Below are positions 1 through 64,000 of a stretch of DNA of 64,000 nt, one piece after another. The position numbers and the translations under genes were made by a program. Source of the stretch: Whitmania pigra (lineage: Eukaryota; Annelida; Clitellata; Hirudinida; Haemopidae); the NCBI GenBank assembly GCA_021613335.1, contig JAJTWR010000404.1, positions 217,001 through 281,000 of the forward strand, read 5' to 3'. The notes below the pieces were generated by a model. That model was not told the origin of the DNA, did not search any database, and saw only the letters and a program-made list of their open reading frames with translations. Position 1 is the stretch's first letter. Each line of letters starts with the position of its first letter.

Positions 1-1376
1 AATTCCCATCTCCCCAAATACAATCCAACCAACAAATAAACCAGCAGTATCAAAATCTGAACCATACATCTTTTCTCATTCCAATTTTATTTCTTTGCAC
101 ATCAATTTTTCAATTCGGGAGGGCCGCCAGATCACTTGACCAACTTTAAATAACAATCTCCAATGCAGAGATAAACTATTATTTATTTACTATTTCTTTT
201 GTTTTTAAAATGCAATAATAATTGAATGAAAAAGCACAAATAATTTATTTATGCTTTTACCGTCATTTCTGTGTTTATTCATTAAAAAAATAGCCTTAAT
301 ATAAAAAAGTAATATTAAATATTGTAATTACATATATTATAAATTATTATTATTAATTAATATTATTAGCTATATAGAGCAATGTCAAATAATTTCATTT
401 AGAATTTTGTGTTTATAACCAATCACTGTTTTAAATTGATCGTTTGATTGCCATTGGAGGATCATCTCAAAGATGGGATTCGGCGCGAACTTTTACACTT
501 CGCTTATTCTCTCGTTTGAACGCAAATAAAACATTTGTCACCATATAAGACGTACAGATACCAAAATACTTGTCCTCATAAGGCCACCCAAGTAATCCTA
601 AAACTAAATTAAATGTCTAGGTCATACTAAAAATAGGTGATTGCTTATTGCTGTATACAGAAAATTCATAAAATTGATATATAAAGAGAATTCTTTAATT
701 TATAGATTACTAAACAATAGGCAAGGAATTGTTGCATTTATTTTTTGTATTTTTATAATTTTTGTCCTGAAAAGTGAGAATTTCTAAAAATTCTAGAAGT
801 AATACAAGCTAGATATAAATTTTGACTTAAATATTTAACGATACAGTGCTCTCTTAGCAGAGGTGTTTTTATAGAGTTCAAATTGTTTTGTTTTTAATAC
901 TCAAAGTAAAATTCAATTTAATTCTTCGTTTTAGTAGACGCATTAATAATCAAATGAAAAAGAAACATATCTATAAATTGACCACCATTTCTAAATTTCT
1001 TCTTTATAAAATAGCGTTAATTTAAACCAAAATGACTAAAAATTTGACTGAAATATTTAACAATGAGTTGCTCTCTTAGCGTGATTTGAAAAGATCCCAA
1101 TGAATTTTTAACTCGTTCTCTAAGTAAAATTAGAATTATTTCTTCGATTCAAAATATGCTACAATAAAAAATATTGAAATAACATTTTTATCACTTTAAC
1201 TTCAAAATTAATTGATTATAAAATAGTCTTAATGATAACTTAATAAACAAAATTATTAAAATATTACCAATAATAATAGATATATTAAATATTGAAATTA
1301 ATGAAAATAATATTAATCACTGAACCAATAGGAATGGTTGGTGGATGGAATCAGTAGGATTTCAGCCACCCAATAA
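1..1376 (+). repeat. two-hairpin repeat units, plus orientation
   Basis: No gene is visible. The stretch is made of diverged copies of the dispersed two-hairpin repeat. Bases 1-60 carry a unit module beginning AATTCCCATCTCCCC that recurs near 29110 and, inverted, near 54660 and 24570. A first-hairpin relative, GTCCTCATAAGGCC followed by ACCCAA, lies at 572-585. Second-hairpin boxes lie at 851-870 (complete) and 1071-1090 (lacking the AGAGG arm). Confidence 0.75.
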
Positions 1377-2021
1377 GTAAACTGTGTGAAAGTTCGTTCA
1401 GCGACGCTCTTCAATAGACTGCGGGCTTCGAGAAGGACACCTCTGTCCAACACAGCTTGCGAGGCAGGTTGTGGTGAGATGGAGTCTCTCGCCCACATCG
1501 TCCAAAAGTGTCCGAGCACGGATGGCCCTCGCCATGCAAGGCACGACCTCATAGTGAAGATACTAGAGATGGCGCTGACGAAAATGGGATATTCAGCAAC
1601 GAGAGAGCCCCGAATACCAACCGTCAAAGGGACAAAAATTCCCGACCTTTGCGCATGGAATGGTGAACGTTACATTGTGTGCGACGTTGCCATGGTGTCG
1701 GACAACATGGATCTTGACAAAGTTCACCAACTCAAGACCAACAAATACAATATCACTGACGTTCATCGGTGGATGAGACAGAACAACCCAATACAAAACT
1801 CGGGTCAAATTCAGGCGATTTCCACTGCCTTCATCATCAATTGGAGGGGCGCAGTCTCACTGGAGACGTGGAGCTCATGGAAAAAGATAGGCCTCTCAAA
1901 GCGGTTTTTGATGTGGAGTTCCTTAAGAACTTTGATGGAGACCCACAAAATCTGGAAGATTTTCAGAATGAACGCATGGAGAGAAAGAAGAAAGAGAAGG
2001 CCAAGGAGAATATTCATGTGA
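1377..2021 (+). pseudogene. 5'-truncated R2-clade non-LTR retrotransposon, C-terminal fragment
   Basis: About 215 codons are open on the plus strand after a stop at 1374-1376, with no good ATG, so this is a fragment. It carries a CCHC-type zinc motif (CEAGC, then H and C, spacing C-x3-C-x7-H-x4-C, near residues 26-42) followed by a restriction-like endonuclease core: KIPDL, then CDVAMVSDNMDLD, and a following K-rich KVHQLKTNKY segment. In the R2 clade these lie downstream of the reverse transcriptase and cut the target DNA. The reverse transcriptase is absent, as expected from 5' truncation during target-primed insertion. The base composition is less AT-rich than the surroundings. A 3' UTR probably continues to about 2100. 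The endonuclease assignment is confident; the exact clade (R2, R4 or NeSL) is not. Confidence 0.8.
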
Positions 2022-2100
2022 CAAAAACCCATATCAAAACTCATTTACTTATTGTTTCAGGTTAATTACTATAGTCCTTGGGTTTTCCCGGGCCCGTTTG

Positions 2101-3503
2101 AGGGCCAAAACAATAATTATTTGTTAAAAAGAAGACATTTTTTAAATGGAAATTTGTTTAAAATATTTAACTATAAGTTTCTCCTTTAGCAGAGGTGATT
2201 TGAAGAAGTTCTCAATAAAATTTTATTAAATTCGACAGAATTGATTTAAAATAAATTAATAATTGAATGAAAAACAAAGAAATAATGTAATTTTGCTTTC
2301 AACCTCATATCCAAATTTATTTATTACAAAAAAAATTTAAAATATAATTGTTTAGAAATCAAAACAATAAGCTTGTTACAGTCTTATTAAAACCTTTAAA
2401 TTGAAACTTATAATGCACTGTTAAATCTTACACATTTCGTTGCGAATGGCATCCTAAAGCACTTTACGATAGATGTCGCCAGTAGTTTCTATATTTATTC
2501 ACCATAAAGTATTTTTATTGTAGAAATTATCTGCTTATTTTAATAACATTGTATTAATAATAACATCTTAATTATTATTATTATTGTTGTTTTACTAATA
2601 ACCATGACAAAAATTATTTAAATTTACATGAATCTAGAATCGTTGGAATTTCCCACATTTGTTGGATTCAAGAGTACCCATCCGAGTCCATGGCGAGCCC
2701 CAACAAATAAAAGGTAAAAAGATCTGATCCAGGTAGCTGTCCTAAACTTATTTAAATTTCTTTGGACCTAAATTTTTCGTCAGTAGTGTTTTCCAAAGTA
2801 GGACCCACAGTTGGCGCTGGATCAATTTGAAATAATCAGATGCCAATAGCAGCCATTTTTTGTATTTGTTATACAATAGCATTATAACTACACCAGTTAG
2901 AAATAGCTTTGCGAAGGTTTTAAAAAGAAATCCATACTTGAATTTTGGTCTACCACAAATAATAGATTTCTGTGGCAGTTGCGATAATCATCACATATGC
3001 AATCAAAGAGGTAACTTTTAGCAATTTATTTTGAACTTTTTTTGGTCTTGCAAAACAAGACCATCTAAAAAACTGTCTACACGTGTATATCTGAGATGAA
3101 CATTTAAAGATACAGTGCTCTCTTAGCAAAGGTGTTTTTATAAGGTTCAAAATGTTATTTTTTTAAATGCTCAAGGTAAAATTCAATTTAATTCAATTTT
3201 AAAAAGACGCAATAATAATCATTTGAAAAATAAACATATCTATAAATTGATCATCATTTTTTTATTTATTTATTTATTTTTGTAGCCTTAATAAACAATT
3301 TTTAATTTCAAAATAATTTTTCATTAAATTTTTTGTGGTAATAACGCGTTACTATTTGATAATAATGTGTTACGTCGCACACATTGCCTTGCGAATGGCG
3401 TCCGAAACAACCAGCAGTTTTAAAATATCAAAAATTTGAATTAATTATTTAATTAAATTAAATTATTATTATGGTTGTTATTAGTATTAAAAATTATTTT
3501 TAT
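2101..3503 (+). repeat. two-hairpin repeat units, plus orientation
   Basis: No gene. Second-hairpin boxes lie at 2181-2200 and 3119-3139. The segment 2140-2590 is repeated closely at 20084-20470 and in part at 31020-31200. A recurring GATGTCGCC-containing module (2437-2480) has relatives at 3379-3410, 20325-20375, 18112-18150, 43133-43190, 47250-47330 and 53695-53740. Confidence 0.75.
3044..3139 (+). repeat. canonical two-hairpin module (GGTCTTG stem)
   Basis: The first hairpin GGTCTTGCAAAACAAGACC at 3044-3062 has a perfect 7-bp stem and a 5-base loop and is followed directly by ATCTAAAAAA. The second box CTCTCTTAGCAAAGGTGTTTTT is at 3118-3139. The same subfamily occurs at 4257, 7727 and 37333 on this strand and at 13762 and 45930 inverted. 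Confidence 0.8.
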
Positions 3504-62479: not shown

Positions 62480-63755
62480 AATCTTAAATGCTTCTTGCAG
62501 TGATCCACAACATCCGCCGTCAAGTAGATCGCGAAAACAGAAAAAGTGAAAAGTTTGTCTTGTCATTGAGCACTTAGGCAGTACCGAAAGTACAGAGGCG
62601 AACATCTCTAAATTCATAAATTCTTTCCCACTGGACTACCAAACATCCGAGTTACGTATTAGTTCCACGGAGTTCGCAACACCAGTCAGTCGTCGTGATT
62701 TTTTAGTTTGCATATGCTTTGACGTCAGCAGTGTCTGCAAGTTTTGCTGTTTGTTTACTTTCCATCGTTATTCAACGTTGCCTCAGCCAATACAATGACC
62801 TGTGTACTCTTGTGTGAAACCTGTGATAATTGTCACATCAAGGGTTGTTTATTATTTTTAATCACTAAGAAATATCTGTCTTCAAATCAAAGACCGCCGG
62901 AAAAATTAATTTGCCACATACTCGCCAAACTATTGCTCAGGAAATTTCACTTAAATATTGAAAATACGTTGTTCTCTTAAGAAAGGTGTTTTCTAATATT
63001 ACTCATTGCGAATGCTAAAAAAAATTTAAAATTAATTCTTTGATTTAAAAAATATAACAATAATTGAATGAAAGGTAAAAAAAATGACATATTTGCGCTT
63101 TTACCGTCATTTATATATTTTCATTATACAGTAGTTTTTACATAGAAAATTATAATATTATATTATTATCATCCGTTTTTTTAAACGCAATAATAATTGA
63201 ATGAAAAAATATAAAATACCATATTTATTATTAAGTATTATAAAGTAGTATCAAAACTAGTCGATTATACAATAGCTTTAACATAAGCAAAATTATTAAA
63301 ATAATGCTATTAATAGTAATATTAATTATTGAAATTAATGATAATAATATTAATCACCAAACCTGCAGAAAATTTCTTAGAATAAAATAATTTAACATAA
63401 ACAAATCATTTTATATTTCATGACATTACTAATGAATTTAACATTATAATTAATTATTTATAATTTCTACCAAATATAGAGAAGTATCTGAATTACAATG
63501 ACTAGCGAGAGATCTGGCCAATCAGCCATAAAAAAAAGGAAGAAGTAAGACCGATGCGTTTGATTGCAGGATCACATTAACTATAATGAGGCCAGTGAGA
63601 TATCTAAGCAGAGGTGTTTTCTTAATAATACGATAAAAGAATGGAACATCCGGCAAAACGAATTAAGTACATTTATGTGTAATTTGTATTAATAATAACA
63701 TGTCACATATTAATAAATTTAGCAGAAGTTAATTTACCAGCTTTAAGAAAGAATG
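62480..63755 (+). repeat. two-hairpin units, plus orientation
   Basis: 62480-62705 duplicates 8960-9190. First hairpins at 62877-62895 (GTCTTCAAATCAAAGACC) and 63515-63528; second boxes at 62970-62993 and 63601-63620. 63397-63762 duplicates 5693-6052. No gene. Confidence 0.75.
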
Positions 63756-63985
63756 TGTTAATAATAATAATAATAATAATAATAATATAATAATAATAAT
63801 AATAATAATAATAATAATAATAATAATAATAATAATAATAATAATAATAATAATAATAATAATAATAATAATAATATAATATAATAATAATAATAATAAT
63901 AATAATAATAATAATAATAATAATAATAATAATAATAATAATAATAATAATGATGATGATAATAATAATAATAATAATAAATAAA
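63756..63985. repeat. (AAT)n microsatellite
   Basis: Array following AGAAAGAATGTGTT, exactly as at 6049, with a short GATGATGAT interruption near 63951. Confidence 0.97.
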
Positions 63986-64000
63986 ATTAAACTCTACAAT

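Follow-up and report, generated by a model that had tools for sequence, protein, structure and literature searches.

Introduction

Spliced-leader (SL) RNA genes are multicopy and have a small nuclear RNA (snRNA)-type promoter, and Sm snRNAs display a 3′-end layout in which a U-run followed by G and then G or A precedes a hairpin, the consensus of the Sm site being PuAU4-6GPu. In nematodes, the motif of PIWI-interacting RNA (piRNA) loci is reported to derive from the snRNA motif, to which it is nearly identical in Plectus, and the piRNA precursors are described as ~28 nt long, with a downstream AT-rich stretch affecting their end (PMC6436959). Integrator, the snRNA terminator, is reported to act at nematode piRNA loci as well (PMC7917550), in C. 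elegans, according to a review, each piRNA has a promoter of its own (PMC6367137), and Sarkies et al. report piRNAs as undetected outside clade V in the nematodes sampled (PMC4323106). In the sources consulted, piRNA loci with a promoter apiece are described for nematodes, and no title or abstract opening among those surveyed mentions such loci elsewhere, which argues only weakly for their absence. Here we describe an array of short units in the annelid Whitmania pigra, located in a stretch of 64,000 nucleotides (the window; bases 217001-281000 of the 647.5-kb contig C354, in an assembly of 178 Mb and 381 contigs). Each intact unit joins a box, which on its sequence is a proximal sequence element (PSE)-type promoter element, to a variable segment, a T-run and a hairpin, and the units look like hundreds of snRNA-type mini-genes, each with a putative unique 5′ part.

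At the DNA level, the array resembles the nematode 21U/piRNA loci, especially those of Plectus sambesii, in presenting one PSE-type promoter per short unique segment, a fixed distance to the predicted start, clustering, an insert that is unconstrained in sequence and an AT-rich stretch ~25-30 nt after the start. It differs from them in that the unit consensus, AAAAACACCTCTGCTAAGAGAAC, has no GTTTC in its start-proximal half on the sense strand, there is no clear YRNT initiator and a hairpin follows the T-run. Any membership of the nematode piRNA-locus family is putative at most, given the absence of GTTTC, the lack of a clear YRNT and a host in which no SL1 was found: the nematode SL1 22-mer is absent from the 178-Mb assembly at ≤2 mismatches, where the reversed control has one match, a result also expected of nematodes that do not carry this leader. 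With U7 and the Sm-class snRNAs, the units would share a PSE promoter, a short RNA and a 5′ part predicted to be free to pair with a target, together with a U-run, a 3′ hairpin and a possible 3′ box, but they are set apart by their hundreds of copies, their variable 5′ parts and an Sm site that is not clearly canonical. SL RNA genes are likewise multicopy with an snRNA-type promoter, although their leader is conserved whereas the 5′ part of the array units is variable; they were rejected as an identity for the units on this variability and the lack of a nematode SL1.

Organisation of the array units

The box matrix was built iteratively, its threshold being set so that first-order Markov shuffles yield about one site per 281 kb, and the search covered bases 1-281000 of C354 and two 10-kb pieces of a second contig, C89. 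It returned 274 sites, comprising 254 in the C354 segment and 13 and 7 in the two C89 pieces. Units are numbered from the first A of the box AAAAACACCTCTGCTAAGAG (position 0) and read from the box to the hairpin. The order of elements is box, TATA-like word, variable segment of ~24 nt from ~+60, T-run followed by GG, and short hairpin, as exemplified by one representative unit.

1..64000, both strands: array of 77 units, 34 on the minus and 43 on the plus strand (matrix site list)
7819..7838, minus strand: box (PSE) of the representative unit, position 0 being base 7838 (matrix site)
7757..7777, minus strand: variable segment of the same unit, with the putative transcription start near 7777
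7726..7756, minus strand: T-run, AGA and hairpin TGGTCTTG..CAAGACCA of the same unit

A TATA-like word lies between +26 and +47 in 160/274 units, compared with 35/274 in a control stretch, and 119 of the 160 units that carry one have it at an offset of +32/33. The T-run/GG/hairpin anchor, scored at the 5% level of an opposite-strand control, is passed by 174/274 units (57/77 in the window) at a median position of +85, and the distance from +60 to the T-run has a median of 24 nt (171 units). When the anchor was sought more widely, from +20 to +227, 200/274 units reached the same score and 158 of these placed it at +70..+99. Almost no sequence is common to the units upstream of position 0.

An earlier note on this DNA had described a repeat of two hairpins at a fixed distance. 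The two-part layout and the distance are borne out by these counts, while two features of that description require revision. The element reads on the opposite strand to the one proposed, from the box towards the hairpin, and only the distal part is, on its pairing pattern, a hairpin. The CTCT/AGAG arms of the box pair in 721/1096 cells, slightly below column shuffles (746.2 ± 7.2), so the box was rejected as a hairpin.

The box is a PSE-type element of snRNA genes

The box is, by matrix match and position, a PSE-type promoter element that U1, U2, U5 and U6 genes of this assembly also carry. It looks similar to CACC, the vertebrate PSE core. The 23-base box matrix of the array was applied to 27 snRNA genes over the 120 bp preceding each (for U1, 17 of the 42 listed; U2, 3 of 22; U5, 5 of 10; U6, 2 of 4), and its best match fell at -69..-59 in 22/27 promoters, where chance corresponds to 11 of 98 positions; many of the sampled genes are tandem copies and these promoters are thus not independent. 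The match beats shuffled promoters at p ≤ 0.01 in 14/27. Among these 22, U1 and U5 matches lie at -60/-61 (for example CGGAACACCTCTGCCAGTGTAGA and TGAAACACCTTGTTCGAAAAAGG), those of U2 on contig C75 at -60 and -62, and those of both U6 genes at -67. The best Rfam U6 match of the assembly, locus L025, presents AAAGACACCTCTGACAGAGG starting at -67 and contains both a PSE and a TATA element. For comparison, the PSE is described as generally located ~40-70 bp upstream of the start (PMC9652321). The five promoters with an off-position match are two U1 genes of C110 (-57 and -104), a U1 gene of C21 (-93), a U2 gene of C103 (-111) and one U5 copy of C17 (-37). A longer matrix of 44 bases, applied to the snRNA loci, had its best match at the PSE in L025 only, and there below threshold.

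Some snRNA PSEs of this assembly carry GAAAC, the reverse complement of GTTTC, at their distal end. A second box subfamily, AAAAACACCTTGGTTTAGTG, with flanks of its own, is located on C354, mostly at 77000-108000; it is similar to the PSE found in one U1 gene (AACACCTTGGTAAG), and the main box type to that of another (AACACCTCTGCC). Two further U6-like loci, L027 and L028, are apparent retropseudogenes.

A variable insert between conserved flanks

The segment between the two conserved parts varies freely, judged from pairwise identities, within surroundings that are conserved. A flank identity of at least 75% on both sides links 101 units into 222 pairs, for which the left and right flanks average 0.85 and 0.84 and the middle 0.56, random pairs giving 0.46 ± 0.07. 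Selection of these pairs used the first 50 positions and a further 50 counted from the T-run, so that only +50..+57 offers an unselected view of the left edge. The earlier claim that the two parts persist while the sequence between them changes is in line with these values. Three sister units of the window, with boxes at 3120, 7819 and 37428, combine near-identical flanks with different inserts.

37428..37447, minus strand: box of a sister unit with flanks nearly as in unit 7819 and a different insert
37362..37386, minus strand: variable segment of unit 37428
3120..3139, minus strand: box of a third sister unit; against unit 37428 its left flank is 100% and its right flank 98% identical
3036..3072, minus strand: T-run/hairpin domain of unit 3120

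Between units 3120 and 37428 the middle, from +50 to the T-run, is only 41% identical. Profiles of identity per position, from which pairs with an insert identity >0.9 were excluded, locate the left edge of this change. Among the 63 pairs of the stricter set, identity runs at 0.75-1.0 between the box and +57, with one position at 0.67, and then falls to 0.68 at +58, 0.56 at +60 and 0.33 at +61, remaining at 0.24-0.66 up to +82. It returns to 0.90-1.0 in the T-run and stays at 0.67-0.98 to ~+47 behind it. The looser set (114 pairs) presents 0.74-1.0 in the box part and 0.34 at +61. The U1/U5 spacing predicts a start at +60/61, and identity reaches chance by +61, within a few bases of that position. 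T occupies +67 in 51% of the 171 units, and pairs of units agree there more often than at the neighbouring positions.

In 40 disjoint pairs, insert identity is 0.67, as opposed to 0.80 and 0.77 in the adjoining 25 bp on either side, and in 27/39 and 28/37 pairs the insert has diverged further than the DNA adjoining the unit. DNA located ~100 bp from the unit displays identities of 0.69 and 0.67. Because its divergence is about the same as that of this outlying DNA, the insert is termed unconstrained, and diversifying selection is not claimed.

Pol II (RNA polymerase II) is probably the polymerase of the units, since the start of the insert follows the spacing of U1 and U5 (60/61) and not that of U6 (67), and since TTTT is not avoided in the inserts (42/157 versus 37.2 ± 4.5 in shuffles; TTTTT in 25 versus 15.9 ± 3.7). 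These observations bear on the suggestion that the units are type-3 mini-genes of RNA polymerase III (Pol III) that end at the T-run and yield uncapped RNAs of ~24 nt with a U tail. Such genes would combine a PSE, a TATA-like word and a T-run, and the U6 gene of this assembly has both a PSE and a TATA element, but the U1/U5-like spacing and the tolerated T4 runs speak for Pol II, and Pol III termination is disfavoured because 35/126 T-runs comprise only three bases. We consider a Pol III origin very improbable.

The 3′ part of the unit

A stem better than in shuffles (p ≤ 0.05) is predicted just after the T-run in 64/171 units, compared with 11 and 8 of 171 in control windows. A stem of six pairs was scored over an alignment of 40 non-redundant copies, drawn from 51 selected, and 78.3% of its cells are paired; shuffles give 72.4 ± 1.2, with 0/500 reaching 78.3, and slid partners at most 64.6. 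Double changes occur at four of the hairpin pairs, although 209/500 shuffles have as many, and the covariation score is reached by 31/500 shuffles. RNAalifold gave no consensus fold for the plain alignment of the 40 copies. Taken singly, six 3′ domains of window units have folds with z of -1.29 to -3.38, a stability equalled by 1-21 of 200 shuffles; in unit 3120 the segment 3036-3077 folds at -12.3 kcal/mol (z -3.4).

A run of three to eight Ts followed by G is found in 59/73 non-redundant subfamilies, and 14/73 are without such a run. The base before the T-run is A in 43/59 subfamilies (background 0.55), a modest enrichment. TAAC words accumulate at +40..+59 after the T-run anchor, with 52 in 171 units where other 10-base bins hold 1-23, and 18 are found at these positions in the 73 subfamilies. 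By eye, GTAAC/GTTAAC-like words also lie 11-17 nt behind some U1 and U5 genes of this assembly.

This 3′ part is what would be expected of U7-like snRNA genes, in which an RNA of ~55-60 nt would carry a variable 5′ antisense guide of ~24 nt, an Sm-like U-run (AUUUUUGG) and a 3′ terminal hairpin, its end being cut by Integrator at a 3′ box. The units match the 3′-end layout of Sm snRNAs, and the A before the T-run, the stem excess with its pairing above controls, and the TAAC peak with similar words behind U1 and U5 genes all point the same way. Conversely, the T-runs of only three bases and the subfamilies without a T-run followed by G do not suit an Sm site, which in some copies could moreover be hidden by pairing of the U-run with an A-run behind the hairpin, and neither the RNAalifold result nor the double changes and covariation argue for a conserved structure. 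Overall, U7-like genes are the main alternative identity for the units, possible but rather unlikely.

Abundance, clustering and strand layout

The matrix identifies 77 box sites in the window, where well under one is expected by chance, close to the 85-90 that the earlier note had counted by eye. The box as given in that note has 45 matches at ≤3 mismatches and none in 100 shuffles. No Rfam match in the window reaches a gathering score; the eight weak matches at E ≤ 5 are all below gathering scores and none overlaps a unit by coordinates. ARAGORN finds no transfer RNA (tRNA) genes in the window. The first reading thus stands as to abundance, two-part layout, fixed distance and persistence of the parts, and fails as to its two hairpins.

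Gaps between boxes have a median of 601 bp and a mean of 825. The window forms part of a cluster spanning from the start of C354 to ~289 kb, with scattered matches on to 480 kb. Genome-wide, a degenerate pattern derived from the box has 82 exact matches, 66 on C354 and 10 on C89, compared with 0 for the reversed pattern; a looser pattern has 202, versus 25 for its control. Sites are arranged in same-strand blocks, with 15 runs in the window (39.1 ± 4.5 when shuffled) and 47 runs among the 254 C354 sites (127.7 ± 7.9), which suggests local duplication of units.

A dispersed transposon, short interspersed nuclear element (SINE) or miniature inverted-repeat transposable element (MITE) was rejected, as 66/82 exact matches lie on C354 and the sites are strand-blocked. 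More broadly, the units might constitute a selfish or DNA-level repeat, MITE- or SINE-like or a promoter decoy, whose spacer keeps a fixed length and which makes no RNA. That 100/274 units display no detectable anchor, and that the insert has diverged at much the same pace as DNA ~100 bp outside the unit, would be natural for such a repeat. Its concentration on one contig in same-strand blocks, a PSE and spacing common to real snRNA genes, and conservation that stops at either edge of the insert are not, and we regard this explanation as improbable.

Proposed function of the units

The sequence itself displays a box that matches the PSE of the assembly, a spacing that is fixed, an unconstrained insert between conserved flanks, a stem excess after the T-run, and clustering. 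From these we infer, as predictions, SNAPc binding, Pol II transcription, start and end sites, a small RNA and its possible loading into Piwi or another Argonaute. SNAPc would bind the box, and an AT-rich word located ~28 bp upstream of the putative start would stand in for a TATA-like element. Pol II would most likely initiate ~60-61 bp after the box start, at the edge of the variable segment, and the T-run and hairpin 22-28 nt downstream may pause or end transcription. The predicted product is an RNA of roughly 24-30 nt, different in each unit, and the library would have grown by local duplication while the transcribed insert drifted. We consider it on balance probable, if only just, that each intact unit constitutes a monocistronic mini-gene under an snRNA-type promoter, producing a short unit-specific RNA, and that the array constitutes a genomic small-RNA library like the nematode 21U/piRNA loci.

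Several observations weigh against a small-RNA library. The youngest duplicates (24 pairs with flanks at least 0.95 identical) keep much of their insert identity, with 0.81 in the middle. The looser pair set slopes down already from +48 (0.54-0.79 over +48..+57), and the high flank identity is partly a consequence of choosing pairs with similar flanks, +50..+57 being under no criterion. No clear YRNT or 5′-U peak is found at the predicted start in 171 units, the YRNT frequency being 0.04-0.16 over +55..+66 with a weak local maximum of 0.16 at +60. Matches of the inserts to 234 kb of neighbouring unit-free DNA show no clear excess, either for 14-mers (16/154; shuffles 10.6 ± 2.8; read backwards 17) or for 13-mers (38; shuffles 27.0 ± 4.2; read backwards 31). 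Many of the units without an anchor may be decayed, and a hairpin with a possible 3′ box would fit a longer snRNA.

That a non-nematode animal independently turned an snRNA promoter into a library of hundreds of single-locus guide-RNA genes, with a ~24-nt 5′ segment particular to each and a T-run/hairpin 3′ module common to all, is plausible though short of probable. Promoter-per-piRNA loci would then have arisen a second time, or the units would form a new class of guide snRNAs that are U7-like. If true, the former would constitute a second, separately built case with a defined hairpin downstream, suggesting that snRNA promoters are repeatedly recruited for unique small RNAs, and a PSE followed by a variable insert and a T-run/hairpin would offer a simple genomic search for such libraries elsewhere. 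Were the product an Sm-class guide RNA, the units would encode a naturally occurring U7-like snRNA whose guide varies.

Further units and other sequences in the window

Additional units of the window are listed below by their boxes, with the position of the T-run anchor.

8654..8673, minus strand: box; anchor +81
13671..13690, plus strand: box; anchor +82
30648..30667, minus strand: box; anchor +81; fold of the 3′ domain z -2.5
39509..39528, plus strand: box; anchor +85; by eye in one subfamily with 49048, 55699 and 62310
44295..44314, plus strand: box; anchor +88; hairpin GATGGTC/GACCGTC, z -2.9
49048..49067, plus strand: box; anchor +90
49627..49646, plus strand: box; anchor +81; sister unit of 8654, its insert differing in part
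61726..61745, plus strand: box; anchor +87; short-loop hairpin class
62310..62329, plus strand: box; anchor +84

Units 49627 and 8654 present identities of 0.96 in the left flank, 0.96 in the right flank and 0.70 in the middle.

tRNA-like SINE pieces were identified by eye in or beside several units (near 14114, 21845, 23278 and 40349), and the same SINE adjoins, also by eye, the U6 retropseudogenes L027 and L028 on other contigs, thus linking C354 to the main host genome. The assembly holds bacteria in addition to the host, as contigs C115, C49, C360 and C47 contain long uninterrupted bacterial-type cytochrome oxidase subunit 1 (COX1) genes, that of C49 being closest to Pedobacter with best identities of 85-90%.

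Broken frames resembling non-long-terminal-repeat retrotransposons were recognised by eye at 18134-20076 (minus strand), 33158-36637 (plus strand) and 1377-2021 (plus strand), and two of these pieces match Pfam RVT_1. A frame of 288 amino acids at 49873-50739 (plus strand) contains a hAT dimerisation domain; such reverse-transcriptase and hAT remains are in keeping with an animal genome. The segment 57768-58361 comprises a degenerate tandem array of AAACCCAAAG-like units.

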